Assembly (NCBI RefSeq): GCF_000520975.1
Contig: NZ_JACB01000015.1
Coordinates: 124,001-188,000 of the forward strand
DNA: 64,000 nt
Reading direction: 5' to 3'
Source: Aquimarina megaterium XH134
Lineage (GTDB): Bacteria > Bacteroidota > Bacteroidia > Flavobacteriales > Flavobacteriaceae
Positions within the stretch are counted from its first letter, which is position 1. Every line of letters begins with the position of its first letter. A model generated the notes under the pieces. It saw nothing but the letters and a program-made list of their open reading frames with translations. It was not told the origin of the DNA and did no database searches. The position numbers were made by a program, and so were the translations under genes. This document shows positions 3,575 through 19,780 of this stretch, piece by piece.

Positions 3575-4378
3575 TTAAGCAATATCCTGCATAAGTATTG
3601 TAACTTCGCTAATAGATGCATTTAGATAAAGTGCTAATAGTGTTAGAGTCTCATTTTCATTCCCACTATTTTGCATAATATTGTGAAGCCCTGATGATAG
3701 AAACACTAAGCTATTTTTTACCCCTGACAATGCGCCTATGCATAACCCAAAACTATCTTGGGTCATTTTAATCTGATCTCGAGATGCTTCTAATCCTTCA
3801 AGCTGCGCCTTACTCTTCGATGCCTTTTTATTAGCATTACTTGCTTTGGTACTCCACGATGTAAAAAGTCCTGTTGCAGTGGCCAAGCCTGCTAATCCAA
3901 AGGGGCCAAGTGCCAAAAAATAATAGCGTTCCTTTTCATATTTTTTTGCCTTATCCTTGGCTTTTTGAGCTTCAACCCTAATTTTAGCATCTTCAATTTC
4001 TAATGCTTTAAAATGCTTATGTAATTCTTGTGAATAAGAAAAAAAATGTTCTTGAATAATGTAATTCTTTTTTAACTCTTCGTTAAGACCATGATTCGCT
4101 TCCAATACCATCTTATCAACTCTGGATAGCAATAACAAACATTTTTCTTTATCGGTATAGACCACTGATAATGCTTGTAACAAATCATTATGTATAGATT
4201 TTGCTTGTTTTTGTAGCAATTTTTGAACATTCTGAATTGAAGAAACGCTTTCATCAATAATAAGTAATGCTTGTTGTTTGATTTTTTCAGATTCAACTGG
4301 TAATGTTTCCCCTTTACTAAGTTGAACTTGATACTCCTTAATTACGTTAACAAGCTGTGATAAATACCCTTTTACCAT
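3575..4378 (-). CDS. Third component of a putative alpha-pore-forming toxin set
   Basis: A 267-residue, mostly helical protein with no signal peptide. Residues 30-150 look like long amphipathic helices with coiled-coil character. A hydrophobic hairpin at about 152-174 (FLALGPFGLAGLATATGLF) is followed by a basic, alanine/lysine-rich helix and a second helical bundle. This layout, long helices around one central hydrophobic hairpin, is that of the ClyA/HBL/NHE and xenorhabdolysin-type toxins. It lacks the N-terminal NGLVLQSYCNSILQQP-like motif shared by the two upstream genes, so it would be a distinct subunit. It lies 102 bases after the second gene, separated by a hairpin (4423-4462) that may lower its expression. 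Family assignment rests on architecture and neighbours, not on a clear signature. It could also be an immunity or accessory protein. Confidence 0.6.
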   Translation of the reverse strand: MVKGYLSQLVNVIKEYQVQLSKGETLPVESEKIKQQALLIIDESVSSIQNVQKLLQKQAKSIHNDLLQALSVVYTDKEKCLLLLSRVDKMVLEANHGLNEELKKNYIIQEHFFSYSQELHKHFKALEIEDAKIRVEAQKAKDKAKKYEKERYYFLALGPFGLAGLATATGLFTSWSTKASNANKKASKSKAQLEGLEASRDQIKMTQDSFGLCIGALSGVKNSLVFLSSGLHNIMQNSGNENETLTLLALYLNASISEVTILMQDIA

Positions 4379-4422
4379 TTTGATTTCTATGAATAAGTTT
4401 AATTATACTAAATTGAGTAAAG

Positions 4423-4462
4423 AGGTTGTCTAACCTATATGAATTATTTAAGTAGACAACCT
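4423..4462 (-). terminator. Possible attenuating hairpin between toxin-like genes 2 and 3
   Basis: AGGTTGTCTA and TAGACAACCT form a perfect 10-bp stem with a 20-base loop, just after the stop of the gene at 4481. In the direction of transcription the stem is followed by CTCTTTAC, a weak U-tract. Partial termination or RNA-end protection would alter the ratio of the third gene to the first two. Confidence 0.5.
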
Positions 4463-4480
4463 TTTTGGATTAAAATATTA

Positions 4481-5551
4481 CTAGCTTACCTTCTCTAGGT
4501 AATCAATAACAGTTTCTCCTTCTGGCAAGGTAATGGTCACAACACCCGCCAATTGTTGGGTAATCGTTGTTATAGTGTCTTGTAAATCCGCTATTTCATT
4601 ATTTGCGCTATTTAAAAAGAAAGTTCTAGCCTCATCAGTACTAGTGATGCCATTTGTTAAATCATTGATCAAACGGTCTAAATTTACTGATACATCCTTC
4701 CAAATAGTCGTCATTCCTTCAGACGCTTCTGCTGCAATTTTAGCTTGATCTGATAGACTGTCCATTACAGATTCGATACCTCCCAATAGCAAGATTTCTT
4801 GTTCCAATGTTGCTTTAGATTGAAATAAACCATTTTTTTGATTGTATAAATCCTTCAATTCTATAATAGAAGCAGCCAGTAAAGCTCCACCTGCAGCTAC
4901 AGTAACAACCCCTCCAGCAATCAGTTCGGCTCCAACCGGCGAAGCAATAGCACCCATACCAATCATCACGGCTCCCCCTGCAATAGCAATCCCTTCACCA
5001 ACAATGGCTGAAATTTGCGCATTGATACTACGATCGATAGACTTAAGTTCATCAGATATATCTGCTAGCTCTCCTTGGTCGCCTGAGATCATTTCATTTG
5101 CTTTTTGTGCTAATTCATTAAATGCAATGGCATCTGCTTTTAGTCGAATACTTAAATCATTTAACCCTTGTACTATGACTTCACTATTTCTAAGGTTATT
5201 CTCAGTGAGGCCTTTAATTACCGTAAGCACAGATAACCATTGATCTACAGTAGCCCCCTCTGGTAAGGTAACAGGTACCACACGATAGACTGTAAAATAA
5301 CTCTTAAGGTCAGATAGCGAGCTGATAATTTTAGGGTTTATATCACTTAAGTAACTGTTGGCACTTTCTTTAGCGTTCTCAATACTATCATTTATACTAT
5401 TCTGTATACCTACTAAATCTTCAGATGAAGAAAAGTCTAAGTTCGGTTGCTGTAAAATAGAATTACAATAACTCTGTAATACAAGACCATTTGTAGTCGT
5501 TTCTTTTTGTGAGGCTTCTATATTTTTTATATGATTTCTTAAAATTTCCAT
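4481..5551 (-). CDS. HBL/NHE-like alpha-pore-forming toxin component
   Basis: 356 residues without a Sec signal peptide. The N-terminal half is helical and contains GLVLQSYCNSILQQP (residues 22-36), shared almost word for word with the gene upstream. A glycine/alanine-rich hydrophobic stretch at about 181-230 (IAGGAVMIGMGAIASP) would be the membrane-inserting tongue. It is followed by further helices ending in the common (Q)QLAGV-type segment. The pattern matches the Bacillus HBL/NHE superfamily and the Gram-negative tripartite toxins of the Ahl/Smh/Mak kind. In those systems soluble subunits assemble in order into a pore in a target membrane. It is a paralogue of the 5581-6669 product and lies 29 bases behind it, so the two are almost surely co-transcribed. 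Family is fairly secure; the target (eukaryotic predator, host or rival bacterium) is unknown. Confidence 0.75.
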   Translation of the reverse strand: MEILRNHIKNIEASQKETTTNGLVLQSYCNSILQQPNLDFSSSEDLVGIQNSINDSIENAKESANSYLSDINPKIISSLSDLKSYFTVYRVVPVTLPEGATVDQWLSVLTVIKGLTENNLRNSEVIVQGLNDLSIRLKADAIAFNELAQKANEMISGDQGELADISDELKSIDRSINAQISAIVGEGIAIAGGAVMIGMGAIASPVGAELIAGGVVTVAAGGALLAASIIELKDLYNQKNGLFQSKATLEQEILLLGGIESVMDSLSDQAKIAAEASEGMTTIWKDVSVNLDRLINDLTNGITSTDEARTFFLNSANNEIADLQDTITTITQQLAGVVTITLPEGETVIDYLEKVS

Positions 5552-5580
5552 AACTGTGTTTTTAGTAATTAAAAAATTCT

Positions 5581-6669
5581 TTAGGCAGCCGTTGCTTGCT
5601 CCGCTAAATGCACAGCATATTCCCCAACATTCATATCTTCAGCACTAACACTTACATTTACACCTGCCATTTGTTGTTTTATCAAACTAACATCTTCAAG
5701 GATGAATGGAATGGTTTCATTTGCGGCTGTTAAAAATAATTGTCTAACGCTATCCGTACTAATAATACCATTTTGAAGATTAAGAGACAGATTATCTAAA
5801 TCACTATTAATCGAAACCCAAGCATTTTTCATTTGGCTGGTAGCTGTCACTGCTTCTGAAGCTCCAAAACCTAAAGAACTATAGCCACTTTTAATCCCTT
5901 CAGCTAAGTTGACCTCACTTGTTAGTGAAGATTTTTGTTGTAACACTGAAGCTTTTGCATCATAGAGGCCTTTAAGCGTAAGAGCACTGGCTACGGTACC
6001 TGCTGTACCTACCAATACAACGGCCACGCCACCAGCAATTAATGGGGTAGACCCTCCTGCAGTAAAAGGGCTACCAATGGCTCCAACACCAATCATAACA
6101 GCACCACCTACAATGGCTAGTCCACTAATAACAGTCCCTGCAATGGTGCCTGCAATTTGTTTATCAAGTCTTTCAATATCTTTATCTAAAGAAGCTAACA
6201 TACCGTCGTTACCACCAACGATAGCGTTAAGGTCATTGATCGTTTTATTAAAAAATGCCACATCTGCATTTATATTCGAATTTAAATTCCCCAAGTCTAT
6301 TATAACAAGATCACTGGCTTCAATAAAGGTATCTGTTTGGCTTTTCATAGCTTGTAAAATACTCAGCCATTGTGCTTCGGTAGCATCAGGTGGAAGGACT
6401 GTAGGTACTGCTGAATACAAATTATAGAAATTAGAAATACTATTAATATTACTAATAATATTATTCTGGATGCCATTAAGGTAGGTTTTCGCATTGTCTT
6501 TAGCGTTTTGCAACCCATCATTTATATTAGTTTGGATCTTTGATAAATTGGTGAATTCTGAAAAATCAACAAAAGGTTGTTGTAAAATGCTATTACAGTA
6601 GCCTTGCAATACAAGACCTTGAGTGGTTTGTGTTTTTGCAGCTTCGATAGTCGGATCTGAAAATGTCAT
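5581..6669 (-). CDS. HBL/NHE-like alpha-pore-forming toxin component (first gene of the operon)
   Basis: 362 residues, no signal peptide. Helical N-terminal region with GLVLQGYCNSILQQP (residues 19-33). A proline-containing linker (VPTVLPPDATEAQWLSIL, about 88-105) is shared with the next gene. A long hydrophobic stretch lies at about 172-232 (VISGLAIVGGAVMIGVGAI, then a second arm), and then come C-terminal helices. The hydrophobic arm pair between long helices is the hallmark of the HBL/NHE/ClyA-like toxins. The gene leads the set 6669 to 3575. Duplication followed by divergence from the 4481-5551 gene is evident. The absence of a signal peptide agrees with related Gram-negative toxins, which leave by unclear routes or lysis. 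The membrane LytTR regulator upstream (6869-7990), on the same strand, is the natural candidate controller. Confidence 0.75.
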   Translation of the reverse strand: MTFSDPTIEAAKTQTTQGLVLQGYCNSILQQPFVDFSEFTNLSKIQTNINDGLQNAKDNAKTYLNGIQNNIISNINSISNFYNLYSAVPTVLPPDATEAQWLSILQAMKSQTDTFIEASDLVIIDLGNLNSNINADVAFFNKTINDLNAIVGGNDGMLASLDKDIERLDKQIAGTIAGTVISGLAIVGGAVMIGVGAIGSPFTAGGSTPLIAGGVAVVLVGTAGTVASALTLKGLYDAKASVLQQKSSLTSEVNLAEGIKSGYSSLGFGASEAVTATSQMKNAWVSINSDLDNLSLNLQNGIISTDSVRQLFLTAANETIPFILEDVSLIKQQMAGVNVSVSAEDMNVGEYAVHLAEQATAA

Positions 6670-6868
6670 ACTAATAAATATTTAAATTTAAAACGAGTTT
6701 AAAATCTTAGAGAAGATTATGTTTATCCCTCTAAGAATTGGTTGCTCAATTTTATGTAAGTTGTTTGTTTTTAGCACCTAAAATCTTCGTGAAAGCGAAA
6801 AAAAAAGGTTGAATAGGAAATATTAAGGCTGAGTTTTTTGAGTTAAGGTTCGTAAAAGGCTATTTATT

Positions 6869-7990
6869 TCAAGCGTTTAACCATTTTTTAAACTCTGCTG
6901 CCTTATTCTTGCTAATAAGAATTTCAATTTCAGAAAAATGAATCAAGATTTTTAACTGGCTATTGCCATATTTGATAATCTTTTTTATAGCTGTAATACG
7001 AACTATAAATTGACGATTGGCTCTAAAAAAAAGGGTGTTATCTATATCATTATAAATCTCATCTAAGCTTAAATTACTTATCGATCTCTTACCATCGGTA
7101 TTTACTACGTATGTTATAGAGTTTTCTGTGTTTATATATGTGATGTCTTTAGTATTGGTAGGAATTAATTCATTTCTTTTAAAAGTGAGTAACCTTTTTT
7201 TATTCGTTTGTTTCAAGTCGGGATTAGTCTTTAAAAAAGATGTTTCAATTTTTCGCTCTTCATCAAAAACTCTTTGCTGATAGTTAAACACTCCTAAATT
7301 TAATTTAGTAAGATTCATAATATCTTTCTCTAAATCAGAATTCTTTGCTTCTAGCTCTTTTTCATAAAAACTACCAATAAAACGAACTGCAAAAAATGAA
7401 ATGATGATAATTAGAATACCCATCAATATAAAAATCGTATACAAACGTCTTTTTAGCTTTGTAATATGTATTAATAGTTTGTTGAGATTTACAACTGAAA
7501 CAATACTAATATTCGTTTGCTTTATTGGTATTTCGTAGAGTATCTCAGAATTTTTAGGCTGATAAACACCGTCAAACTTTTTTTCATAGTCCATTAGTAT
7601 ATCATAAATCTCATTGATACTACTGCTTTGACTAATAGAATGCTTTAAACGTCTACTAGCAATAATTTTTTGATGAATTAGCTCTGGTTTTGGATGAGAT
7701 AAGATTTCACCATTTTTATTGATAGCTACAATAAAGGTAGTTCCGGGCTCTGTTTCGTATAAAGCCTCTTGAATACGATCAATGATATCAACTTCACTTT
7801 CTCCGTTTTTTATTTGTAAATACGATAAGCGTGCTATTTCTTTGACTTCTCTCTTACTAGATTCCAACTGTAAATCAACCAACAGATTAACACAAATCTT
7901 TACACTATAATTAATCCCTAATGAGGCCATGGCTAAGAAGATAAGCGCAATAGAAATAAACGTTAAAAAATACAGCTTATCTTTTCCCAT
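6869..7990 (-). CDS. Membrane-anchored LytTR-domain transcriptional regulator
   Basis: 373 residues. Membrane helix 1 spans about 7-29. An extracytoplasmic segment at 30-182 has a Cache-like look (TFIVAINKNGEILSHP near 85-100). Helix 2 spans about 183-205, then a coiled-coil linker, then a C-terminal LytTR DNA-binding domain at about 267-373 with the family phrase FFRANRQFIVRI. There is no histidine kinase or receiver domain, so signal input and DNA binding sit on one polypeptide. LytTR proteins bind paired direct repeats about 21 bases apart upstream of targets. No clear pair was found by eye in the 199 bases before the toxin-like operon. Its position directly upstream of that operon on the same strand suggests it controls the toxin genes, which is inference. 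Confidence 0.85.
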   Translation of the reverse strand: MGKDKLYFLTFISIALIFLAMASLGINYSVKICVNLLVDLQLESSKREVKEIARLSYLQIKNGESEVDIIDRIQEALYETEPGTTFIVAINKNGEILSHPKPELIHQKIIASRRLKHSISQSSSINEIYDILMDYEKKFDGVYQPKNSEILYEIPIKQTNISIVSVVNLNKLLIHITKLKRRLYTIFILMGILIIIISFFAVRFIGSFYEKELEAKNSDLEKDIMNLTKLNLGVFNYQQRVFDEERKIETSFLKTNPDLKQTNKKRLLTFKRNELIPTNTKDITYINTENSITYVVNTDGKRSISNLSLDEIYNDIDNTLFFRANRQFIVRITAIKKIIKYGNSQLKILIHFSEIEILISKNKAAEFKKWLNA

Positions 7991-8085
7991 TATAGTGCTG
8001 ACTTATTCTGTTAAAAAAGGAAGATTTAAACATTCTTAAAAGTTTAATAAGGAATATCAAAGTAAACGATAACAACTGATTAACA

Positions 8086-8093
8086 CAAAAGTA
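8086..8093 (-). promoter_or_regulatory. Probable -7 element for the LytTR gene
   Basis: On the minus strand TACTTTTG fits the Bacteroidota -7 consensus TAnnTTTG, about 95 bases before the start at 7990. No clear TTTG lies at the -33 position, so this is tentative. Confidence 0.35.
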
Positions 8094-8451
8094 ATATGTC
8101 ATTTTTTGATGTTGTTGTTCTTGTTGAGGATTCGAGACCATTGCAAAAGGTTTCAATTCGTTATGATTGAACTCCTAAGGATCAACATCATGTCCTTCAC
8201 GAAAAAAATCGAATTTTTGTCCCACTAAAAATGAATGAGAAGTTAAGAGTGTAACGAGGCTATTAATAATTTAGAATGGATTCTTATAAATACTTCTAAT
8301 TCAAATAAATTGTCAATAGAATGGTTAGATAGTTCAATCTCTCCTGCTACTAGACTAAAATAAGTTTTTTCTTACATAACCCGAATACAAAGTTCAAACC
8401 TCACACCTCTAAATATCAATAAGTTAATTGTGTTTATGAATTTCGCTATAA

Positions 8452-8490
8452 AAAAATCCCTTGTAAAAATGAGTGTTTACAAGGGATTTT
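8452..8490. terminator. Bidirectional hairpin terminator-like element
   Basis: AAAAATCCCTTGTAAA and TTTACAAGGGATTTT form a long stem round a short loop. A-runs on one side and T-runs on the other allow termination in both directions. It directly precedes the tRNA-Arg-end-like repeat, as does a weaker version at 2871-2894. Confidence 0.65.
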
Positions 8491-8500
8491 AATCTAATTC

Positions 8501-8533
8501 GTGACCCCGGAGGGATTAACTAGTGTTGATCCC
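8501..8533. repeat. tRNA-Arg-end-like hairpin repeat, copy 2
   Basis: GTGACCCCGGAGGGATT is identical to the complement of the tRNA-Arg 3' end (19706-19722). It then diverges into AACTAGTGTTGATCCC, so that GGGATTAAC-TAGT-GTTGATCCC forms a 9-bp hairpin. This is the copy closest to the tRNA in its first 17 bases. Confidence 0.6.
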
Positions 8534-8670
8534 TACAATGTTATGCGCTGAAAACCAAAGAGTTATCAGATTATTTTGAAGTAGCTTAACAAAATTGATA
8601 TGATTTTTTGAAAGGTAATCATATAAAAATCAAGTAGTAATTAAGTCTCTCTCCTACTCCAATCTCGAAC

Positions 8671-8715
8671 CTCTGGACTCATAACCCGAAGGTCACAGGT
8701 TCGAGTCCTGTTTCT
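8671..8715 (+). pseudogene. Decayed 3' half of a tRNA-Met (attachment-site relic)
   Basis: The segment reads as a 3' tRNA half. It has an anticodon loop CTCATAA (anticodon CAT), a variable loop AGGTC and a perfect T-arm, ACAGG-TTCGAGT-CCTGT. The 5' half is missing and the anticodon stem no longer pairs fully, so it cannot be a working tRNA. Integrases that insert into tRNA 3' ends carry such fragments, so this is probably an att remnant. Confidence 0.6.
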
Positions 8716-8872
8716 TTTATTTTAAGCTTCTGATTTTCAGAAAATTACTTATTTATTAAAAAATCAAATTCAGCACGTCAAGCACGATTTTCAAGCACGG
8801 TTGGTGTACTTTTTTTTATAAATATTTGATTTTAATTATTTATAGGTTTAAGATTAATTGCACCCTTAGGGC

Positions 8873-8932
8873 ATAAAATGGATCAAGCTCAATTGTTGTG
8901 TTTAGGCAAATATTCTGGTTAATCTAAATAGG
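8873..8932. repeat. Direct repeat, left copy, flanking the 9.5-14.3 kb operon
   Basis: It shares with 14532-14587 an ATGGAT start, the core AATTGTTGTGTTTA.GCAAA and the end GTTAATCTAAATA, with a few substitutions and small gaps. In the right copy the last part includes the stop codon of a WYL-regulator remnant. The two copies lie in the same orientation about 5.7 kb apart. Confidence 0.6.
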
Positions 8933-9334
8933 AAGAATTCCTTGTTTTTTACATTTTTGGTTTTTTTTCGTTTCATGACTATAGTATTTTTTTATTTTGG
9001 AGAATGAATAATAACATTAGTATAATTAAAGATAACTTGATGATCTCTATCAGAAGCTTTAATATAGTTGAATGTTGAGAAAGTAAAGGTGAGTATAGAC
9101 GTGAATTCAATGTAAGAAAATCATGTCAATTCGATCTGACATAGGATTCAGAATAGTAATTTTTATTCCTAAAAAAGCTATTCTCGATACATTTTTTCTC
9201 CATTTCATTTTGAAAAACCGCTCGAATTGAAGCTTTTATATGCATTCTAGTTTATGTCGTACTCTGGTTATAAAGGTTTCTTTATGTAAAAGGTGTTTTA
9301 CAGAATCAATTATAATTAGTATATTGTAGGAATT

Positions 9335-9383
9335 ACAAATAACCCCTATAGCCATACATTGTATGGCTATAGGGGTTATTTGT
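9335..9383. repeat. 49-base near-perfect palindrome
   Basis: Two perfectly complementary 24-base arms (9335-9358 and 9360-9383) flank a single T. The arm contains AACCCCTATAGCCATACA. The right side continues as TTTAGTTTTT. It ends about 120 bases before the start of the 941-residue gene. It could act as an insulating terminator, a cruciform or protein-binding site, or a transposition scar. No gene reads into it from the left on the plus strand, which makes ordinary termination less obvious. Confidence 0.8.
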
Positions 9384-9504
9384 TTAGTTTTTAATAATCT
9401 GTAATTGTTCTTAGGATATAATTTATCAAAAATGTCGAAAGAAATTTCATATAATTAAAAGCGATAGTAGTAGATTTAACTTACTGGGATTTAAATAATT
9501 TAAT

Positions 9505-12330
9505 ATGGGGGTATCTAATTTTGCTGTGTATATGGCATATTGCACTTTTCCGCATGGAAAAGAAAGTAAGTTCATAGAAGCAAAACGAAAAACTTTTGAT
9601 CAATATATAAAGAAAAATAGTGATTATTTAGTCGAAAATAGAGCTATTGAAGAAGCTTATTACAAACCTTTAATATTTCATTTGTTTGGTAGCTTCGATG
9701 TTGTTTTTATATCACTGATAGATAATTATAAGTTTTGTCAGAAAGTTTTTGATATAGGTGAATCTGAAGATCAAATTTCTGCTAATTATCAAATTATTAC
9801 TGGGTATTATGATAAAAATTACCTTCCAAAAGGTGGGGAAAATTGTTTGAAAGGTTATTTTCCTATTGATAACAAAAAGACAAATAAAGTTTCGAAGCAT
9901 AAATATGTACATATTACAAACTTTAAATTGAATAATGGTCTTTTATTGGGTAATGGAGATCAATTTGTTGATGAAGTGTTAAAACATATTCATTCAGCTT
10001 TAAATGAGTACGAGTTGGATTTTTTATTATTCCGATCATTTAATTGGTCAGAAATAACATTAATACAGTTTGGAGATGATTTAAAGGAGCTACAAAGAAA
10101 AATTATTGATTTTAGAGAATTAAGTCTCTCTGAACTTGCGAATAACGTTGAGAACATTAGTCGAGATTCCTTGTATCATGATTTGTTTACTACTAATGGA
10201 GAAAAAAAAATTGACCATAGCCATGTTTTTGTTGATTCTCATTCATATTCTGGTGTAGATTATTTTGAATTTAATAAAAAATATGATAACAAAGATAACC
10301 CTTATAAAGATGATATGTTTAAATCATCCATTGAACTTCAGGTGAAACCTGGGCACCTTAATCCATTATATAATATCCTTAAGAAAAACTCAGTGTTTGA
10401 TGAATCAAAATTAAAGTTTAAGAATGGTAAAACAGATTACTTAGTAAAAGAAAAAGAATATGAGAGTTTTATTTCAAATTATAATCTTAATAGATTCTAT
10501 CACCATAATGGAGATGAGTTAGCACAACACATAAGAAAGTTAAAAACGAATTACTTATTTGATATTAATGAACTTAATATTGAGTCTAAAGAGGTTAGTG
10601 ATTTAGGAATCACTAATTTTGGAGAAGTGCTATCCGAAAAATGCACTATTGATATATCGGGTATAAAAGAGAAGCTCAAGAAACTTGGGATATCAAGACA
10701 ACTGAGAGAGAAAATATTAAAAGCTTTTTATAATTTCAACAATTTGATTACTGATATAGTCCTCTACGCCGAATTCATAGAATTAAAAGACTATCTATTA
10801 TATCTAGAAAGAGATATAAACAATGAAATTAATAGTCTAGATTCTTTTTTTTTAAATCCTGTGAAAATTGCAGGAGCTAATATAAATGATAAAAATACTT
10901 TTGGAGTAAGAAGAATTGAAGAAAAGTGGAAGACAATACTTGAGATCTATGAAGAAGCGTACCATAATAGAGTACATAACAATTATCTATACGAAGATAT
11001 TAATGAGTTTAGTATTGATTTTAATTGTGCCGTAAATCAAATCAATACAATTCATGACTTTATGGTGAAAACCGTTAATAATTTTTTCTTTCCTAGATTT
11101 AAAGATCAGATTATAGTGACTCAAAATGCGATAGACACAAAATCGAATGTTCTCAATGTCAATTATAATGTATACCATTTTTTAGAACCTTCATTGATAT
11201 TTACTACCTTATTTAAGGAAGTTATTAACGGATTTGAACAAAGAGCAAGCAAACCTGAAAAGAATGAAAAAGGAGAGCTAGTATCTGTACCTTTATATAA
11301 TAAAACGAATCATTTTAATACTTTAAAAAGGAAGGTTTATGAGGATATTGGGCAAAAACTGAATGAAAATGAAACTCAGAGAGTCCATTTTGATAATTTT
11401 GATTTCTTTTATTTTTTTGCAGATATAGCCAAGTTGGGATTTACTTTTTTATTCGATTATCAGTTGTATGAGTATTGGAGTTGGACATATTTTCTTCAGG
11501 ATAGTAGTCACTATCAAAATAATGGTTTGCCTGATGAAGGGTTATTTCAAAAAGAATTATTACGAATTAGTTTAATAAAAAGATTCTTTAATGATGAAGA
11601 TGAAAACTTGGTGCAATCTCCAGTTCCTGAGCTTTTTGATTTATGGCAAGAATCCATTGAGGATATTCATGAACTTGCTAAACAAATAATTGATTGTAAT
11701 CATTTTAAAGAAGATATTAGGTTGTTTTCTGAGTATATATTTATTGATAAATTCAAAATGGATAATTCAAATTATCAAGTAGCAGTAGGTACAATGGAAT
11801 TAGAGATGAGGAATAAACTGCCAGATCAACATGGTAAGATTAATAAAGGAGAAATGAAGTTACTGACAGGTCTTAAAAAACCTTTTCCAGATAATAATTA
11901 TCCGGTTCCGGATGCTTACCTACAATTAAAGTTAATTAACTGGTCTTCTCTTTACATTCAAAGTGAAGATGGTAAAAATGGTTATAGAGGAGAGCTAACA
12001 AAACTTTTTAAACTAGAAAAAGGGGCGTTATATCTTATTTGTAGCATGAGTCATGCTACACTTTCTCTTTTTAAAGAAAAAGGAGGGGCAATTAAGTTAC
12101 TACGAAGAGATTGTAAAAAAGGAAAACCTTTACCCGATTTTACATGTAAGGAAGGTGCTTCGCTTTTTATAGATCCATTTGGTGGTTTTTTTCACAATTC
12201 AGAAGATCTGAAAAACGAATATTTTGCGCTTAAAAACAATATTATTAGTATTCTTTGGCATTTTGCTATGATAGACAAAAAAAGATTATTCACTAAAAAA
12301 CAAAAGAATGAAACGGATACTCTGGCTTAG
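9505..12330 (+). CDS. Large protein of unknown function, first gene of a three-gene operon
   Basis: 941 residues, no signal peptide, no clear membrane helix and no family I recognise. Two hydrophobic-strand patterns resemble each other: residues 57-73 (FHLFGSFDVVFISLID) and 171-190 (LDFLLFRSFNWSEITLIQFG), each followed by a helix. These could be two ferredoxin-like sensor-type domains, which is a guess. The middle (about 380-560) is helical and charged, and the C-terminal third is mixed. No P-loop, nuclease or protease motif stands out. The gene overlaps the phosphoesterase gene by 23 bases, so the two are translated together. Composition is very AT-rich with many AAA, AAT and GAT codons, and no homologue lies in the surrounding core genes. 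It is a candidate sensor or scaffold of a mobile defence-type system, by context only. Confidence 0.85.
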   Translation: MGVSNFAVYMAYCTFPHGKESKFIEAKRKTFDQYIKKNSDYLVENRAIEEAYYKPLIFHLFGSFDVVFISLIDNYKFCQKVFDIGESEDQISANYQIITGYYDKNYLPKGGENCLKGYFPIDNKKTNKVSKHKYVHITNFKLNNGLLLGNGDQFVDEVLKHIHSALNEYELDFLLFRSFNWSEITLIQFGDDLKELQRKIIDFRELSLSELANNVENISRDSLYHDLFTTNGEKKIDHSHVFVDSHSYSGVDYFEFNKKYDNKDNPYKDDMFKSSIELQVKPGHLNPLYNILKKNSVFDESKLKFKNGKTDYLVKEKEYESFISNYNLNRFYHHNGDELAQHIRKLKTNYLFDINELNIESKEVSDLGITNFGEVLSEKCTIDISGIKEKLKKLGISRQLREKILKAFYNFNNLITDIVLYAEFIELKDYLLYLERDINNEINSLDSFFLNPVKIAGANINDKNTFGVRRIEEKWKTILEIYEEAYHNRVHNNYLYEDINEFSIDFNCAVNQINTIHDFMVKTVNNFFFPRFKDQIIVTQNAIDTKSNVLNVNYNVYHFLEPSLIFTTLFKEVINGFEQRASKPEKNEKGELVSVPLYNKTNHFNTLKRKVYEDIGQKLNENETQRVHFDNFDFFYFFADIAKLGFTFLFDYQLYEYWSWTYFLQDSSHYQNNGLPDEGLFQKELLRISLIKRFFNDEDENLVQSPVPELFDLWQESIEDIHELAKQIIDCNHFKEDIRLFSEYIFIDKFKMDNSNYQVAVGTMELEMRNKLPDQHGKINKGEMKLLTGLKKPFPDNNYPVPDAYLQLKLINWSSLYIQSEDGKNGYRGELTKLFKLEKGALYLICSMSHATLSLFKEKGGAIKLLRRDCKKGKPLPDFTCKEGASLFIDPFGGFFHNSEDLKNEYFALKNNIISILWHFAMIDKKRLFTKKQKNETDTLA

Positions 12331-13927
12331 CGATATTCATTTGAATGGGGAAAGCGAAAATAATGACACCAAAAATTTACTTACAGCATTTCAAAGGAAG
12401 TTAAAAAGTATAGGCAATATTGATTATTTAGTTATTAGTGGAGATATTGCTAATACAGGTGATAATGACAAACATTATAAACTCTTTTCAAAAAAAATAA
12501 TAGCACCTATAAAAGATGCTTTTTCGGAAATTAAGATAATATCTGTTCCTGGAAATCACGATGTACATTGGGGGCAAGCTAAAAAAGAAATTCAAAACTT
12601 TTTGATGAAGGGAGGGAGGATGCAAGAAAACAAACTCCAAGAGTTTAAGGAAAAAACAATAAATTCAAATTATTATGACAGCGTTTTTATGAAATATAAT
12701 AAATTTCATAATAATTTTCATAATAATATTTCAAATACTCCAAGTGATACATTCTCAAATAATTATTCCGATGATAATGATAATACTATTGTATTCACGA
12801 ATCTAAATAGCGCCTGGTTATCTATTGGAGTCTCCGCTATGGAAGGAGATAATAACTTTAGAAAAGTTCAAAACACATATTCTAACACCATATATGCTGA
12901 TAAGGATAAAACACAATTGATATTTGAAGAAGTCGGAAATCAATCTTATGGTTTTACACTAAGTAACATCAATAAAGACATTAGTAAATTAGAGAACGAG
13001 CTTATATCTGAATATAAGGATTCTTTCAAGATTTTGGTAGCACATCATCCACCTAATAATTGGCTAAGTTGGGAGGAATTATATAATAGTAGTATTAATG
13101 ATAAAAGTGAATTCAATAAATTTATAAATAAAACGGATATTGACTTGATGCTGGTAGGTCATGAGCACACATCTTTGGTTGAAGGAGAATTGATTTTCGG
13201 TAAAACATTAGTGCTTAAAGCTGGGATGTTTTTGGATCATCATGAAAAAGATCATGATCTTTCTTGGTTTAAAATTTTAGAAATAGAGGAGCAGGAAAAA
13301 ATAGTAAGAGAAAAATGGTACAATTATCATCCAGCTGGCCCCTTTTGGAAGGAAGCCCAGGAATATGGTATGGAGTACAAGAATTGGAAAAGTATTAGTA
13401 GCCCAATTATAAAAGCGAATAATAGAATCAATGATTCTGAGCATAAAGTATCTAAAGCAGATTCATCTAATATTTTAATATCAGATGATGATGAGTTAAA
13501 ATCAAAAATAAATAGTGCCAAATCTTGGAAAAAAGAAGCTCTATTTAAATTAGTAGGATTTCCTGAAAACCTGGAATTTCACACTATTAAGAAAGGTTTA
13601 TTGCTATATTCGTATAAAAAAGAGGAAAAAACCCCTATTTTATTTGTTATTGATAATATCGAAGATGTTTTTTCCAACAACCCCGATGATTTACCAAAAA
13701 ATTCTTATATTGAAGCACTATTGGCTTATTTAAAAGAAAATAATTCTCACTCAGATATATTTATATTTTATATGTATTCGTTTGCTAATAAGGAAGATAA
13801 GGAGAGTCAAAAATATCTTAAACGAATCATTCGTAAAAAATTTGAACATTTTAAATATATCATCTTCAACAATGATCTTTGTAAAAGTAAATTAAAAAAT
13901 GCTAAATTTGCAATACGCATGGTATAA
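12308..13927 (+). CDS. Calcineurin-like metallophosphoesterase with an unassigned C-terminal domain
   Basis: 539 residues. The N-terminal 300 or so carry the complete metallophosphoesterase motif set: D9-x-H11 (WLSDIH), D46 (SGDIAN), N83-H84-D85 (GNHDVHW), H246 (VAHHPP) and G284-H-E-H287. The two-metal active site should therefore work, on a phosphodiester, nucleotide or phosphoprotein that cannot be told from sequence. A polar linker at about 365-400 leads to a C-terminal domain (about 400-539). That domain has alternating strand and helix segments such as PILFVIDNIEDVF and SDIFIFYMYSF, resembling no family I can name. The start lies inside the preceding gene (23-base overlap), and the third gene begins 6 bases after its stop. 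It is the likely effector or signalling enzyme of this operon. No signal peptide, so cytoplasmic. Confidence 0.9.
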   Translation: MKRILWLSDIHLNGESENNDTKNLLTAFQRKLKSIGNIDYLVISGDIANTGDNDKHYKLFSKKIIAPIKDAFSEIKIISVPGNHDVHWGQAKKEIQNFLMKGGRMQENKLQEFKEKTINSNYYDSVFMKYNKFHNNFHNNISNTPSDTFSNNYSDDNDNTIVFTNLNSAWLSIGVSAMEGDNNFRKVQNTYSNTIYADKDKTQLIFEEVGNQSYGFTLSNINKDISKLENELISEYKDSFKILVAHHPPNNWLSWEELYNSSINDKSEFNKFINKTDIDLMLVGHEHTSLVEGELIFGKTLVLKAGMFLDHHEKDHDLSWFKILEIEEQEKIVREKWYNYHPAGPFWKEAQEYGMEYKNWKSISSPIIKANNRINDSEHKVSKADSSNILISDDDELKSKINSAKSWKKEALFKLVGFPENLEFHTIKKGLLLYSYKKEEKTPILFVIDNIEDVFSNNPDDLPKNSYIEALLAYLKENNSHSDIFIFYMYSFANKEDKESQKYLKRIIRKKFEHFKYIIFNNDLCKSKLKNAKFAIRMV

Positions 13928-13933
13928 GATATT

Positions 13934-14338
13934 ATGGAAAAAGATAAAAAAATAACATCTGCTATTAGAGGAATCCTCAATGATTTGTTAGCTTATGCAA
14001 AAGAAGATAGCTACCCTGCTATTTCATTTGAAGATCTTACTTCAATAGTTATTGATAATGATAAGGATAATGTTCTTAATGATATTAATTATATAGAATC
14101 AAGAAAAAAACTAGAAGAATTAATGGTAAGTGATTATAATTTACCACAAGATACGTATAAATCACATTTTATTGAAAACAGTTTTATTAAAGGTGTCTCT
14201 TTAAAACAAGAATTAGAAGAAGACAAGAATGTGATTAAAGTAGATGATGAATCTTTGGATATTACCTTACGTGTTTTGGAAGCAGATGCACTTATATACC
14301 GTCATAACAACGATAAAGAAACTTATATTGCGGGTTAA
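13934..14338 (+). CDS. Small acidic protein of unknown function, third gene of the operon
   Basis: 134 residues, soluble, rich in Asp, Glu and Lys, and predicted mostly helical. The N-terminal part (KKITSAIRGILNDLLAYAKE) is amphipathic. The C-terminal part ends in a strand-like DALIYRHNNDKETYIAG. No motif is recognised. It begins 6 bases after the phosphoesterase stop, so it belongs to the same transcript. In two- or three-gene conflict systems a small last gene can be an adaptor, an inhibitor or an immunity protein. Nothing in the sequence chooses between these. No clear terminator follows before the repeat at 14532. Confidence 0.8.
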   Translation: MEKDKKITSAIRGILNDLLAYAKEDSYPAISFEDLTSIVIDNDKDNVLNDINYIESRKKLEELMVSDYNLPQDTYKSHFIENSFIKGVSLKQELEEDKNVIKVDDESLDITLRVLEADALIYRHNNDKETYIAG

Positions 14339-14531
14339 ATAAAGAAAGTTTTTTTTCAATCCAGCTATTTGATTTGTATTTATATGCTTAATAGATAAAC
14401 CAGACAGGGAAGTTATTTTTCGTTTTGTTCTGTTAATTTATAATTTTTTTCTATATGCATTATTTTTTCTCCTCTACGGTATAGAGTTTTACAAAGTGTA
14501 GATTCATAACAATTACCATTGCCAGTGAACT

Positions 14532-14587
14532 TATAATGGATGATGCCTAATTGTTGTGTTTATGCAAAATTTATGTTAATCTAAATA
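14532..14587. repeat. Direct repeat, right copy, flanking the 9.5-14.3 kb operon
   Basis: This matches 8873-8932 (shared core AATTGTTGTGTTTA.GCAAA and GTTAATCTAAATA). Its right end overlaps the stop codon of the WYL remnant (14576-14578). The repeat may therefore derive from the 3' end and downstream region of that gene. Confidence 0.6.
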
Positions 14588-14787
14588 AAGTTCAGAACCC
14601 TTATTAAGTCTTTCACTAATTCGTTTACGAAGTCGTTTGGGCTGTAATACCTCAATACTCTCCCCAAAACCTAATAACAATCTTTCCAATTCAAAATTAA
14701 TTTTCACTTTGATACTTATTATAATACTGCCATCATCATTTTGCTGTTCGAGTATTTGTGAATGATGTAATGGTTTAGTAATTACAT
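14576..14787 (-). pseudogene. C-terminal remnant of a WYL-domain transcriptional regulator
   Basis: On the minus strand the reading frame gives YVITKPLHHSQ, then FELERLLLGFGESIEVLQP and LRKRISERLN, ending at a stop at 14578-14576. This is the usual C-terminal end of YafY-type WYL regulators, the part after the WYL core. The N-terminal HTH and the WYL core are missing. At about 14785 the frame runs straight into the IS3 transposase fragment on the other strand. WYL regulators are often linked to phage-defence loci in other bacteria, so this one may once have controlled a neighbour. Confidence 0.75.
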
Positions 14788-15609
14788 ATGGAGTTAGTAC
14801 AAGTGGTTATTACAATTGGTTAAAACTAGGTCCATCAAAACGATGGTTAGAAAACGAAGCTATCTCTCTGCAAATAGGCACTATTTTTAAAGAAAGCTTT
14901 GAAAGTTATGGAGCTCCAAGAGTTAAAGTTGAGTTATTAAAACGTGGTTATCGTGTTTCTAGGCCCAGAGTAGCTAGACTGATGAAAGCTAATAAATTAT
15001 TTGCTAGAAGAAGTTGTAGATTTATAGTTACTACAGATGCTAATCATAGCTATCCAATAGCCCCAAATATCTTGAAACAAAATTTTTCAGTTGATAGAGA
15101 AAATCACGTTTGGGTATCTGACATTACTTATATCCAAACCAAACAAGGCTGGGTATATTTGACGGTAATTATAGATTTATTTCATAGAAAAGTGGTAGGA
15201 TGGTCAATGAGTCTAACATTAAATACCAGTGACACTATCATTCCGGCTTGGAATATGGCTGTAACATCAAATACTATCAGTAAGGAACTAATTATTCCAT
15301 TCTGATAGAGGAACTCGATATGCTAGTTATAGATTTACCAATATTATAAAAAGTTATAATGGATTAATAAAACAAAGTATGAGTAAGAAAGGAAATTGTT
15401 GGGATAATGCCGTAGCTGAATCGTTCTTTAAAAGCTTAAAAGTAGAGTGGGTATACAAACACAACTATGGACTTAGATCAGAAGCTGAGCTATCAATCTT
15501 TCAATGGATTGAAACTTGGTATAATAGAAGAAGAATACACTCTAGTTTGGGGTATAAAACTATAGAAGAATTTAAAATAGAAATGTTTAATCAAAAAGTA
15601 GCTGCATGA
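14784..15609 (+). mobile_element. IS3-family transposase (OrfB) fragment, 5'-truncated and frameshifted
   Basis: Frame 1 runs from 14784 (YGVSTSGYYNWLK) through a first catalytic-Asp region, WVSDITYIQTKQGW, to a stop near 15302. Frame 2 picks up at about 15295 with HSDRGTRYAS (second Asp) and continues through WDNAVAESFFKSLK (catalytic Glu) to the stop at 15609. The DDE residues are all present, but split by a frameshift near 15295. The N-terminal start of OrfB and all of OrfA are missing. The right end probably lies shortly after 15622, where TGTCCACTTTTTAGTTGCA occurs. The element is dead. Confidence 0.85.
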
Positions 15610-15759
15610 CTCTTAACTAAATGTCCACTTTTTAGTTGCAAGTCCACAATTTTAGACCCTCTGGTTTTTGGACAACAAACTTATTAAAAAGCAAATAGAT
15701 TTGTTGGTCACAAATGTCAATTTTTTCTCGATAATATTCATAAATTGAAAAACAATCCT

Positions 15760-16130
15760 TTAATAAAAAACTAAATCTTCTTTCCATTCCCCTTCACGAG
15801 ATAAAGCAATCTCTTTCTGACTTTTCTTTACTCGTATATCCGCTAATGAGGCTAGTTTTTTAGGATCTCTTTCTCCATTAATTATTGCTCTTATGATCCT
15901 TTGGCCGGTCTTACCATTAATATCTCTAATAGCAATATCTAACCTAATGTTCATTAAACATAAAGATTTTTGCATTTTATTGGTATACTTTGCACACTGC
16001 TTGATCAAGGTTTGTCTATGATAGTAATAGGTTTTTAGCTGTCTTGTGCATTCATCTGGTAAAAAACTACTTCTCAATAAACCAAGACTATGTAATTTTT
16101 GAATCCATTGACAATCAACACATCAGTCTT
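15760..16130 (-). pseudogene. IS110-family transposase remnant
   Basis: Minus-strand reading gives KTDV, then after a one-base deletion near 16117 DCQWIQKLHSLGLLRSSF, LKTYYYHRQTLIKQCAKY and MNIRLDIAIRDINGKTGQ, ending ...EGEWKEDLVFY. These are the middle segments of IS110/IS116-type transposases. The N-terminal DEDD catalytic part and the C-terminal serine domain are both missing. It is an inactive fragment of about 120 codons and shows that the locus has accepted several elements. Confidence 0.8.
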
Positions 16131-16182
16131 CTTTAATTTTATATTTTTTAATTTGATCTTTTATTGGTGAATTTGGGCTTTT

Positions 16183-16590
16183 TTAATCAATATCTTTAAA
16201 CTTCTTATATAAAAAACCTAATATGGCTACTACAAGAGTTGCAGAAGTAAATCCAGCACCTATATTTTCGGAAAAAGCGAAAAAGACAAAACGAACAAGA
16301 CCAATAGCTACAATTATAATCAATATCTTAATTAAACATCCCCCTGTTTCAAAATCATCATATCCATTCTTTTTAAATCTACGTCTGCCTATCCTTATTA
16401 AAATATAACCAGGCAATATAACAACAATAAAGAAAAAGATAATTAAAACCATAAGTATCTCTGTATCCTTTACAATCAAATCCCCTCCCTTTATATACGT
16501 GTCTATACAGGAAGCTGATACACATATAGAACAGAAAATAATCCATATTAATCCTATAACACTTAACTTATTGTTAAAATATTTTCCCAT
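16183..16590 (-). CDS. Small membrane protein of unknown function
   Basis: 135 residues with four probable membrane helices at about 10-30, 44-66, 85-106 and 113-128. A basic loop (RIGRRRFKKNGYDDFETGG) separates helices 2 and 3. No family is recognised. It lies 70 bases before, and on the same strand as, the tail-fibre-like gene's 5' neighbour region, in an area of insertion debris, so its job is unknown. The ORF is intact and its hydrophobic pattern is regular, which favours a real gene. Confidence 0.6.
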   Translation of the reverse strand: MGKYFNNKLSVIGLIWIIFCSICVSASCIDTYIKGGDLIVKDTEILMVLIIFFFIVVILPGYILIRIGRRRFKKNGYDDFETGGCLIKILIIIVAIGLVRFVFFAFSENIGAGFTSATLVVAILGFLYKKFKDID

Positions 16591-16631
16591 CGATTTATTG
16601 AACTTTATTGATTTTATTTAAATTTTCGTCA

Positions 16632-17365
16632 TCAATTGATTTTAATATAGAAATATACGGTCATGTTCTTTGGTCTTGTTTCATTTTCTCCATTGGGTTC
16701 AGTAGAGAATCCAGTATTAGTTCCTGTATCAATTGATATGAAAGATCTAGGACCACTTGATCCTCCTCCAGCTCGAATGTTATGAGAATGTTTAGAAATG
16801 TATCAGATTGTAGTTTTCCTACAGGAGTATTGCCTGGATTAGCTTGATCGGGTTTAACAGGATATACTCCATCGAACTTGACTTCGTAATCACTAGTATT
16901 CCTTAAAAACAAACCTCTTAAATCAGGAACATCATTAAGTTTAGATCCATATATAGAATTATTAACAATTCTTCCATCACAAGGAGCCCATTTTACAACT
17001 TTCATATCTGATGAATACTCAAGGTTATTTATTGATAAGAAAGTTTCATATCTTAAAACAGAGCTTATGATTGTACCTACTGGTAAATTTTCAACTTTAT
17101 GAATGAAAACTTTCCCGTTAATAGTATCTACTTTACTACCTGTAAACTTTTCTAAAAATTTATCATTCACTTCTTTTCGTATATCTGGTTTTATACCCTC
17201 TGCAAGTAAACCACTAAATTGTGTTATAGCTACTGTTAATATAGAAGCAAAAGCTCCAATAACTGCAATTCGTATTGTCTGTTTAGCTGTGATTTTTGCA
17301 ACCTGTACTTCAGGTTTCTCTTTTTCTTTCTCTTCTGATTGAGTGTTTTCATTTTTAGAATCCAT
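16632..17365 (-). pseudogene. Membrane-anchored tail-fibre-like protein, frameshifted near its C-terminus
   Basis: The gene starts MDSKNENTQSEEKEK, an acidic head. A membrane helix follows at 30-50. From residue 95 the pattern is that of phage tail-collar/fibre ends: LPVGTIISSVL, KWAPCDGRIVNNSIYG, VPDLRGLFLRN, and GKLQSDTF at residue 190. The open frame then ends in unrelated sequence at 16661. In the next frame the expected family ending is present: HSHNIRAGGGSSG, TGTNTGFSTEP and ETRPKNMTVYFYIKIN, with a stop at 16632. One base lost from an A-run near 16790 explains both. The cause could be a true mutation, a sequencing error or slippage. Function is unknown; tail-fibre-like modules without phage genes nearby are unusual. 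Confidence 0.75.
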
Positions 17366-17406
17366 TCCCTCTAAGTTTAAATTGAACTTTTGTTTAAAGC
17401 AAAATA

Positions 17407-17435
17407 CCCCATATCTAAAATCATTAGATACGGGG
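17407..17435 (-). terminator. Hairpin downstream of the 17541-17870 gene
   Basis: On the minus strand CCCCGTATCTAA and TTAGATATGGGG pair fully, with a G-U wobble where the plus strand would have an A-C mismatch. This points to a role in minus-strand RNA. A short T-rich stretch follows. Confidence 0.55.
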
Positions 17436-17540
17436 CAATTCTTTTTCTTAAGTTGCTGTAAAATTACAAAAAAACAAAATAAATTACTGATTGTTAGGTA
17501 TTTGTTTTTTTTGCTAAATCAGTTTATTGAACTTTTAATT

Positions 17541-17870
17541 CTACTTTGTTTTTATAAATAACCTTTCATTAAAATTTGCATTCTCCATAATAAAAGACTC
17601 TGGTTGGTCTTTCATATGGAATCGACAATCAAAACTTGAAAATCTATCTTGTTGTGAATCACCTTCAATTACTATTTCAAAAAAATCATCATTATTTTTT
17701 TTAAAACTTATTTTTCCTTCAGACAAAATTTCACTCTTACCTTGATTATTAATAAGCCACAGTTTAGCTATTCCATGAAACAATGAACTTAAACTTTTAT
17801 TATGATAATGGGAAACATATAATGATACATAAAAATTTTGAAAATGGGGTTGTAACTTCCATAGACACAA
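17541..17870 (-). CDS. Hypothetical protein, start uncertain
   Basis: The open frame gives 109 residues. The C-terminal 80 look genuine, with alternating strand-like segments (ISFKKNNDDFFEIVIEG, FSSFDCRFHM), and a terminator-like hairpin follows. The N-terminal 25 residues are less convincing. In another frame a start at about 17875 reads MLVVSMEVTTPFSKF, so the true start may have been lost by a frameshift. No family is recognised. Confidence 0.4.
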   Translation of the reverse strand: MCLWKLQPHFQNFYVSLYVSHYHNKSLSSLFHGIAKLWLINNQGKSEILSEGKISFKKNNDDFFEIVIEGDSQQDRFSSFDCRFHMKDQPESFIMENANFNERLFIKTK

Positions 17871-17910
17871 CTAACATATCATTAGATTTTTTACTTAAAA
17901 ATTAAATTAT

Positions 17911-18312
17911 ATGGCTTTACAAAGGAATTATTATACAGATAAATTTTTAGATGAAGACTTTGAACAGATCGTGATTTATAAAGAAAATCAGGTTAAAGAA
18001 AAATATAATGAAAAATCATTAAGGGACTTATATTTTGATGACGCTCTTAAAATAAATAAGGCATTGATTTCCGAAGATATCACCAATAGATATTATCGAG
18101 ATATTAATAGGAATAATAGAAGGTTAATGCTTGAATATCTTGATCGCTGTATTAAAGAAGATTTATCTGATTTGTCTTACAAAGAGAAGTTAGAACTTAA
18201 AGCAGTTTACATTAGTGAAGTGTCTTCTCATTTAGGGCGTTTAGGTTTTGAAGTAAATCGTTATTGGGTGTTTTTTATAGCTGCTGGATTGATATTCCCG
18301 GAATACAGGTGA
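17911..18312 (+). CDS. Hypothetical protein whose end is fused to recombinase sequence
   Basis: 133 residues, mainly helical and charged, with DFEQIVIYKENQVKEKYNEK near the N-terminus and SSHLGRLGFEVNRYWVFF near the end. No family is recognised. From about base 18284 the DNA is recombinase-derived, but read in a different frame, so the last ten or so residues (GLIFPEYR) are probably not native. The protein is likely a 3'-truncated gene, joined by the same event that removed the recombinase N-terminus. Confidence 0.5.
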   Translation: MALQRNYYTDKFLDEDFEQIVIYKENQVKEKYNEKSLRDLYFDDALKINKALISEDITNRYYRDINRNNRRLMLEYLDRCIKEDLSDLSYKEKLELKAVYISEVSSHLGRLGFEVNRYWVFFIAAGLIFPEYR

Positions 18313-19471
18313 AGCTTATCAAGTAATAGACTCCCTCAAAAGGATGGGAATTAAGGTGAATTCTATAGAACAGCCTTTGAATCTTGATCAGCCCGACAAT
18401 AAAATTATGCTAGCTATTTACTTAGCTGTACCTGAAGTTGAGAATGACAAAATATCGATACGGACAACGGAAGGTTCTAGGAGAGCAAACAAAGAGGGAT
18501 GCTGGACATCCACCGCTCCAATTGGCTACAAAAACCAAAGAACTTCAGAAGGAAAAGCTTCTCTCGTAAAATCCGAAAAATCCGAATTAGTAAAAGAAGC
18601 ATTTGAGTATATAACAAAAGGGTTTCCTGCTGATGAAGTGAGAAGAATTATGCACAAGAAGGGTTTGAATATTTCTAAGTCTAGGTTTCATTTATTAATA
18701 AAAAACCCTGTTTATAATGGAAAAGTGAAAGTTCCTGCTTACAAAAACGAAGATGAATATTACGCAGAAGGTCTCCATGATGCTATTGTTTCCGATCAAT
18801 TATTCAATCGAGTCCAAGATATTCTTAAAGGTAGAAAAAGAAGTAAAAAGAAATGGTCTACAAAAAATGAAAACTTACCATTGCGAGGTCATATATTATG
18901 TTCAAAATGTGGCAGAATATTAACGGGTAGTGCTTCAACAGGGCGATGGGGAGGGAAATATTATTATTACCACTGCCGATTGGGTTGTAAAGAAAGGTTT
19001 AAGGTAGATCAAGCACATGATATGCTCGACGATTTTTTATCAAAATGTACAATTGACAAAGGGATAAGTGATTTGTATTATGATATTGTTAGTGAACGAT
19101 ATGGAAACAATAAACAGGTCAGATCAACTAAAATGAACAGGATAAATAAAGAAATTAAAGAACTAAAAGAGATCATTAGTAGAGCTGAAGATAATCTTTT
19201 TGAAGGTAAAATTGGTATCGCAACATTTGAAAAAGGAAAGGTAAAGTACCTCAAAAAAATTACTGATTTAGAATTTGATCATTCGGAATTAAAAAATCAC
19301 GGGTTAAATTTTATGACACAGATAAAAACAGCCCTTAAAATCTTTGAAAACCTTAAAAACTTATATAATAACGCCTCATGGGAAGGAAAACAGATGCTAA
19401 TGGGTTCGATTTTTACAGAAAAAATAATTTTTGAAAAAAATAGGTGTCGAACCCTATTAAATATGTTTTAA
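18284..19471 (+). pseudogene. Large serine recombinase lacking its catalytic domain
   Basis: Homology starts at 18284 with L-D-stop-YSRNTGEAYQVIDSLKRMG. This equals the ...DRYSRNT... end of the resolvase catalytic domain, with Arg changed to TGA. It continues as GIKVNSIEQPL, the long E helix, the Recombinase domain (ANKEGCWTSTAPIGYKNQ) and the zinc ribbon (LCSKCGRILTG ... CRLGC), ending in a coiled coil. An ORF from 18344 gives 375 residues. The catalytic serine and most of the N-terminal domain are missing, so it cannot cut DNA. It lies just inside the tRNA-Arg-proximal repeat and was probably the integrase of an island now decaying. Confidence 0.85.
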
Positions 19472-19535
19472 AATACTGATTATCAATTAATAAATAAAAA
19501 AAAGTGGACAAATAAAAAATTACTTACCCACTGTC

Positions 19536-19568
19536 GTGACCCCAGAGGGATTAACTAGTGTTGATCCC
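19536..19568. repeat. tRNA-Arg-end-like hairpin repeat, copy 3
   Basis: GTGACCCCAGAGGGATT is followed by AACTAGTGTTGATCCC, with stem GGGATTAAC/GTTGATCCC. It lies only 138 bases from the real tRNA end. A CTCCCCTTTGCAA string follows, as near copy 1. It is the inner partner of the tRNA end in a possible attachment-site array. Confidence 0.6.
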
Positions 19569-19673
19569 ATTGTGCTCCCCTTTGCAAATAGAAAACCACG
19601 AGCTAGCGCTCTGGCTCTTTATTTTTCTACGAAACCTTGAAGTTTTTGGATTCAGGTTTCTCCAAAAACAAAG

Positions 19674-19694
19674 AACCACGCCGATGGCGTGGTT
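19674..19694 (-). terminator. Terminator of the tRNA-Arg gene
   Basis: On the minus strand AACCACGCC-ATC-GGCGTGGTT forms a 9-bp GC-rich stem, followed by CTTTGTTTTT. It begins about 12 bases after the tRNA 3' end. Confidence 0.8.
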
Positions 19695-19706
19695 TTCTGC
19701 TTGTAG

Positions 19707-19780
19707 TGACCCCGGAGGGATTCAAACCCCCAACCCTCAGAGCCGAAATCTGATGCGCTATTCAGTTGCGCCACGAGGCC
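19707..19780 (-). tRNA. tRNA-Arg (anticodon TCG)
   Basis: This is a 74-base cloverleaf. The acceptor strands GGCCTCG and CGGGGTC pair with one G-U near each end, and the discriminator is A. The anticodon stem TCAGA/TCTGA encloses the loop TTTCGGC (anticodon TCG, codons CGN). The T-arm carries TTTGAAT. No CCA is encoded. Three partial copies of its 3' end lie upstream in the window, so it is a likely integration hot spot. Confidence 0.92.

Follow-up and report, generated by a model that had tools for sequence, protein, structure and literature searches.

A conserved three-gene operon with a metallophosphoesterase on a tRNA-linked island of Aquimarina megaterium: a candidate conflict system

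An intact operon of three genes

The stretch of Aquimarina megaterium XH134 DNA analyzed here (64,000 nucleotides; contig NZ_JACB01000015.1, positions 124,001 to 188,000; hereafter the window) contains an operon of three genes, A, B and C, of which B encodes a calcineurin-like metallophosphoesterase (Table 1). An earlier description made from the letters alone (the sequence-only reading) had reported that A and B overlap by 23 bases and that C follows B after 6; our coordinates agree, and all three genes lie on the same strand. The operon is real and intact, and A, B and C constitute one conserved unit. The same description had stressed a strongly AT-rich composition. This stands in part: GC-content over the operon is 0.27–0.29 (in 2-kb windows), which is the low end of the 0.27–0.41 found across the whole stretch, the remainder of which ranges from 0.28 to 0.41 and is mostly above 0.30; the operon is AT-rich, though not uniquely so. 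Hydropathy, computed for 11 of the A, B and C proteins, peaks at a 19-residue Kyte-Doolittle mean of 1.62 (A of the window), and no hydrophobic stretch attains the strength typical of a membrane helix; the three proteins are therefore probably cytosolic.

Conservation and distribution of the unit

A search of genome contigs with A of the window alone returned no further locus; a two-sequence profile of A returned three, in a Flavobacteriaceae metagenome-assembled genome (L003, also L005; genome G096, JANQNQ010000008.1), in Flagellimonas pacifica DSM 25885 (L006) and in a Lac Pavin Bacteroidetes metagenome-assembled genome (L007). The contig scan relies on short exact peptide patterns, and additional copies may exist. 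All three Bacteroidota loci keep the order A, B, C. Identity to the window copy of A is 32% in L003, 31% in L006, and 35 and 28% in L007, where the gene is in two pieces; for B the corresponding values are 26, 26 and 24%. The interruption in L007 (11626–11785) consists of approximately 150 bases that do not match A and is possibly an assembly join. At all loci A and B either overlap or sit no more than 4 bases apart, an arrangement that points to coupled translation and to a fixed complex; in L007, C starts 271 bases behind B.

Within the genus A occurs in one of 66 genomes, within the family in two of 299 and two of 397 (overlapping draws), and within the phylum and the order in one of 395 each. 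The A. megaterium genome accounts for one occurrence every time, and the second in the family is G096. For B (E<=1e-10) the count in the phylum is one genome of 395, again its own. These searches use a loose first look, so that distant copies may be missed. Searching plasmids by tblastn with A and B from both the window and L006 found no homologue of the unit; seven plasmid records cover 9–16% of the query, a generic metallophosphoesterase stretch. No homologue was found in phages, where B of L006 alone served as query, or in viral contigs searched with the A queries A1 and A5. The sequence-only reading had stated that it would be refuted by homologues occurring singly in core genomes with a known metabolic role, or by genes that co-occur nowhere outside this strain; what we found is the same gene order in three other loci and, in the scanned genomes, no lone A and no lone B (E<=1e-10). 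Together these data show that the unit is rare and patchily spread, and that it is not strain-specific.

The three proteins

B matches the Metallophos family (PF00149) with an E-value of 2.2e-17 and 64.6 bits, against a cut-off of 21.5. Its motifs D9-x-H11, G45-D46, G82-N83-H84-D85, H246 and G284-H285-x-H287, which we take to supply metal ligands of the calcineurin type, are all present, as had been claimed, and the ligands are invariant in all four homologues, the window copy included. The best NCBIfam model is DS8_antiphage (NF053861; E 6.3e-26, 90.4 bits), aligned at positions 2–165 to residues 7–172 of B, followed by DS9_1_antiphage (E 1.5e-13); in PADLOC the protein matches the candidate PDC-S60 (1.3e-21), as does B of L007 (4e-15). 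At E<=0.01 three of the four B proteins match DS8 and all four match DS9, the relatives less strongly than B of the window. As a comparison set, 10 of the genome's 15 remaining Metallophos matches were scored: DS8 had no match among them at 0.01 and DS9 had one, at 0.005, and several hit different named families (LpxH, YfcE, YaeI, ApaH). Because DS8 was matched by none of these ten, the DS-8/DS-9 affinity of B is specific; judged by its sequence scores, B belongs to neither the DS-8 nor the DS-9 equivalog. The predicted fold of B is nearest to YydB and SMPDL3A and also groups with Rv0805; approximately residues 390–539 lie outside the region that at least a fifth of the structural matches span.

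A had been described as belonging to no recognized family, and this holds: searches of Pfam, NCBIfam and PADLOC (E<=1) and of PDB sequences (E<=5) gave no match, and the single PHROG match (0.054) is at noise level. Its predicted model is poor (predicted local distance difference test, pLDDT, 48). With low confidence, the N-terminal part is predicted to form ferredoxin-like beta-alpha-beta-beta-alpha units and the remainder to be mostly helical; a C-terminal stretch, LLRR...G...P...FID...GGFF, is conserved. A fold search with the model gave no rows at E<=0.001. The top rows are largely ferredoxin-like (YgiN, Lrp, ABM-like; E 0.1–0.4) and offer a lead only. Profile comparison of segments of A detected no internal repeats, so that tandem units are without support at the level of sequence. 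No NTPase family was matched by A, B or C (Pfam, E<=1) and no HAD family by A or C (Pfam, NCBIfam); nor did A match an SMC/ABC ATPase or SbcC-like family (Pfam, E<=1), a sequence-level result, the model being too poor to settle the fold.

C is acidic, as reported earlier (isoelectric point 4.5), and has no family match. In the other three loci it comprises 138–147 residues, with identities to the window copy of 24, 21 and 20% (L003, L006 and L007). The bodies hardly align and profile comparison recovers the tail alone, in which Y-x-(G/H)-N-x-D lies within a 12-residue stretch ending 4–12 residues short of the C-terminus. In a leave-one-out test the observed tail score was reached by none of 5,000 shuffles for L003 and for L006, by seven for L007 and by eight for the window; the stretches were picked by eye, making the values of 7–8 in 5,000 optimistic, and L003 and L006 are closer to each other than any other two copies.

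Genes preceding the operon copies

In L007 the gene before A encodes a type III Res protein (PADLOC, 4.9e-163), itself preceded by a type III Mod protein (1e-159); further upstream lie genes for a DrmD-like helicase (3e-209) and for a PLD-like protein, the latter with weak matches only. The place before A is taken in L006 by a gene for a DUF2971 protein that matches the candidate PDC-S31 (6.1e-60). The background was estimated from 107 of 137 listed open reading frames (eight control loci; the 30 reading frames of the window were excluded), one of which matches PADLOC at E<=1e-30. The gene before A thus matches in two of four loci compared to one of 107 control reading frames (p 0.003). Among ten additional neighbors nine have no PADLOC match; the tenth, which lies downstream in L006 and appears response-regulator-like from its sequence, has a PDC-M60C match (4e-5) that is too weak to be counted.

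The row of genes at 71–9525 of L007 runs from an SDH-type serine protease through the DrmD-like helicase, the PLD-like protein and Mod to Res, and can be likened to a mixed type III restriction/DISARM-like cluster.

The island and its surroundings

To the right of the operon, identity to three congeners begins at 19704–19706 (97% to G740, 95% to G687 and 80–82% to G697). To the left, positions 3389–8352 are 95% identical to the sister genome G687, on a different contig there. The approximately 11 kb in between (8353–19703) are missing beside both matching places in G687. The exception is a 158-base piece (15491–15646) with 78% identity to DNA close to the tRNA-Arg gene of G687, so that the sister genome does share a little of the island stretch. 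This is the arrangement seen where islands have accumulated at a tRNA gene, and the copies of the tRNA 3' end suggest that there was more than one.

Table 1. Features of the window, with positions counted from its first nucleotide.
Feature	Positions	Strand	Remarks
Gene A	9505–12330	+	941 aa; no known family
Gene B	12308–13927	+	539 aa; calcineurin-like metallophosphoesterase (approximately residues 1–345) and further C-terminal region
Gene C	13934–14338	+	acidic, 134 aa; body variable, motif Y-x-(G/H)-N-x-D conserved close to the C-terminus
Perfect 24-bp inverted repeat, 1-nt centre	9335–9383		121 bp upstream of gene A
WCX relic (WYL C-terminal extension, PF25583)	14579–14806	-	76 aa; E 1.4e-13; near transposase fragment
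Serine recombinase	18344–19471	+	Resolvase match starts at profile position 93 of 145
tRNA-Arg(tcg), intact	19706–19780	-	DNA identity with three congeners starts at its 3' end
tRNA-Arg 3'-end copy, att-like	19532–19552		90% identity over 21
tRNA-Arg 3'-end copy, att-like	8501–8517		17/17 bases; possible left island edge
tRNA-Arg 3'-end copy, weak	2904		86% of 21

The tRNA relics, broken transposases and dead recombinase of the sequence-only reading were all recovered, the first as the tRNA-Arg fragments, the second as an rve fragment (9.4e-12) and an IS110-like fragment whose weak match (0.0014) stays under the cut-off. The serine recombinase lacks the start of its catalytic domain and is possibly a former mobility gene of the island. 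A WYL regulator had also been reported nearby. No intact one was found, and the WCX relic downstream of C is probably what had been taken for it: the WYL core (PF13280) occurs at three places in the genome, none of them on the contig of the operon, and tblastn with the relic detected no counterpart in the other loci compared. The island also encodes a 234-residue protein with a weak phage tail collar match (16661–17365, minus strand; E 0.18).

The inverted repeat upstream of A resembles a terminator or an operator (fold z-score of the 180-base region, -7.1). Its 18-base core has no second copy in the genome at fewer than three mismatches, and no inverted repeat of comparable size lies upstream of the other operon copies.

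A LytTR regulator gene (6869–7990) was considered as a fourth part of the unit and rejected: a 96% copy is present in G687, which lacks A. Of 21 further genomes searched in the genus, 10 carry full-length relatives (at least 43% identity), and none of the other 65 genomes has A; some LytTR match exists in all 22, often with the best match confined to the C-terminal part. L003 has a LytTR gene (9867–10985), 40% identical to that of the window, on the same strand and approximately 120–150 bases upstream of the operon, which may reflect chance or a shared site or integration preference. The LytTR gene of the window adjoins three genes in a row (3575–6669, minus strand), two of which match the Bacillus HBL family (PF05791; 7e-25 and 2e-27); this stretch has a 95% copy on another contig of G687.

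Discussion

A role in conflict is supported by the island context, the patchy spread, the known or candidate defense genes before two of the three other copies and the specific DS-8/DS-9 match. Our preferred, and tentative, reading is that the operon may well be a horizontally acquired three-protein module that acts against phages or other parasites; by analogy, the picture of a large sensor, a hydrolase effector and a small partner put forward in the sequence-only reading fits. B would be the effector. At rest it would be kept inactive in a complex with the large scaffold A and probably with C, whose conserved Y-x-G-N-x-D tail would dock on A or B. On sensing a molecule or structure made by the phage, A would free B; free B would hydrolyze a nucleotide or a signal made of nucleotides, nucleic acid being the less likely substrate, and the infected cell would stop growing before progeny are made. 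We infer the defense role itself as well as the trigger, the substrate and the parts played by A and C. A more specific version, which is unlikely, is that of an NTPase-free immune system in which A, representing a new sensor-scaffold family, would use tandem ferredoxin-like (RAM/dimeric alpha+beta barrel-like) units to read a sign of infection, the tail of C would act as a latch, and an SMPDL3A-like B would break down a nucleotide or nucleotide signal.

The closest named systems share the enzyme and differ in the partners. In the DefensePredictor study (PMC13092281), DS-8 is a phage-tested single protein combining a metallophosphatase with a NACHT NTPase, the metallophosphatase is listed among the domains not earlier validated in defense, and it is needed in both DS-8 and DS-9, the substrates being left open there. 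DS-8, like B, has its metallophosphatase at the N-terminus, and both resemble SMPDL3A by predicted fold; in DS-8, however, NACHT is fused in one protein, whereas here a separate B, with no NTPase match, is encoded with A and C. DS-9 (NF053862) is likewise a multi-gene system that requires a related metallophosphatase, but its partner is a HAD phosphatase. PMC10586767 names ABC-3C. With the ABC-3C / YydD-YydB type our unit shares the YydB-like phosphoesterase fold predicted for B, but at the sequence level not the SMC/Rad50-like ABC ATPase partner. By predicted fold the closest relative of B is YydB in the integrative YydB-YydD model (PDB 9a6c), in which a phosphoesterase is again modeled with a partner. 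The proteins are from Bacillus subtilis, and YydD is a Rad50-like ATPase, whereas A has no ATPase family match at the sequence level. SMPDL3A and Rv0805 share the predicted fold of the catalytic part of B; they are, however, single enzymes and are not known from three-gene island-borne units. No paper found in the open-licence PMC literature, searched other than by protein sequence, describes the three-gene unit. It would be a phosphoesterase-effector conflict system with a known kind of effector in a new variant of architecture.

Several findings weigh against a defense role. Known or candidate defense genes precede two of the three other copies, that is, are found at two of the four loci; among the neighbors scanned in L003 (five) and the window (four) there is no PADLOC match at 0.01. 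The neighbor statistic is thin and post hoc, with four loci and control reading frames from one genus. The score of B against DS8 is far under the cut-off of 790 bits, the B proteins of L006 and L003 match PADLOC weakly (PDC-S10, at 6e-4 and 2e-3), and the unit has neither a NACHT nor a HAD partner match. A is likened to a sensor by analogy, its model being poor. The fold comparison places acid sphingomyelinase (19.3) and also purple acid phosphatase (18.0) on a par with Rv0805, so that a nucleotide is a substrate that we infer for B.

Other explanations account for some of the same observations. If B were a toxic phosphohydrolase, C its antitoxin and A an accessory, then the operon would stabilize the island rather than fight phage; the island location and a small, acidic, fast-evolving C with one conserved tail motif agree with this. 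A simple pair would not need A, though, which is the largest and best conserved of the proteins (28–35% identity compared to 24–26% for B), and the 271 bases between B and C in L007 also count against such a pair; we regard this as rather unlikely. It is similarly doubtful that the genes are a regulatory or metabolic phosphodiesterase operon riding islands by chance. Consistent with such cargo are the two of four loci without a PADLOC-matching neighbor among those scanned and the same-strand LytTR gene just upstream in L003; yet full-length LytTR relatives occur in 10 of 21 genomes searched in a genus in which A is confined to one of 66, and this confinement, like the tRNA-linked island and the specific match to DS-8/DS-9, is more in keeping with conflict than with metabolism.

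Distinctly unlikely is a nuclease of the SbcCD/Mre11 kind, with B cutting DNA ends and A as its DNA-handling partner: B scores 24.4 bits against the NCBIfam sbcd model, under the cut-off of 77.65, its predicted fold is nearer to SMPDL3A and Rv0805, and A has no SMC/ABC ATPase match. Peptide modification, with C as a substrate whose tail A and B process, might also be suggested by the small size of C, its conserved tail and its place next to a protein as large as an enzyme. A variable body before a conserved tail is the reverse of the usual leader/core layout, however, and no maturase or peptide exporter was recognized in the lists of reading frames beside the operon, for which no dedicated search was made; this possibility is very improbable.

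If the operon is indeed an anti-parasite module, then the metallophosphatase effector would be a reusable module deployed across independent architectures. Were the NTPase-free version to be true, the fold of a cGAMP-cleaving phosphodiesterase of human immunity would serve as a bacterial effector under unrelated sensors, NACHT in DS-8 and A here. The cassette is compact, and its substrate, trigger and inhibition are each open to study by the removal of single genes.
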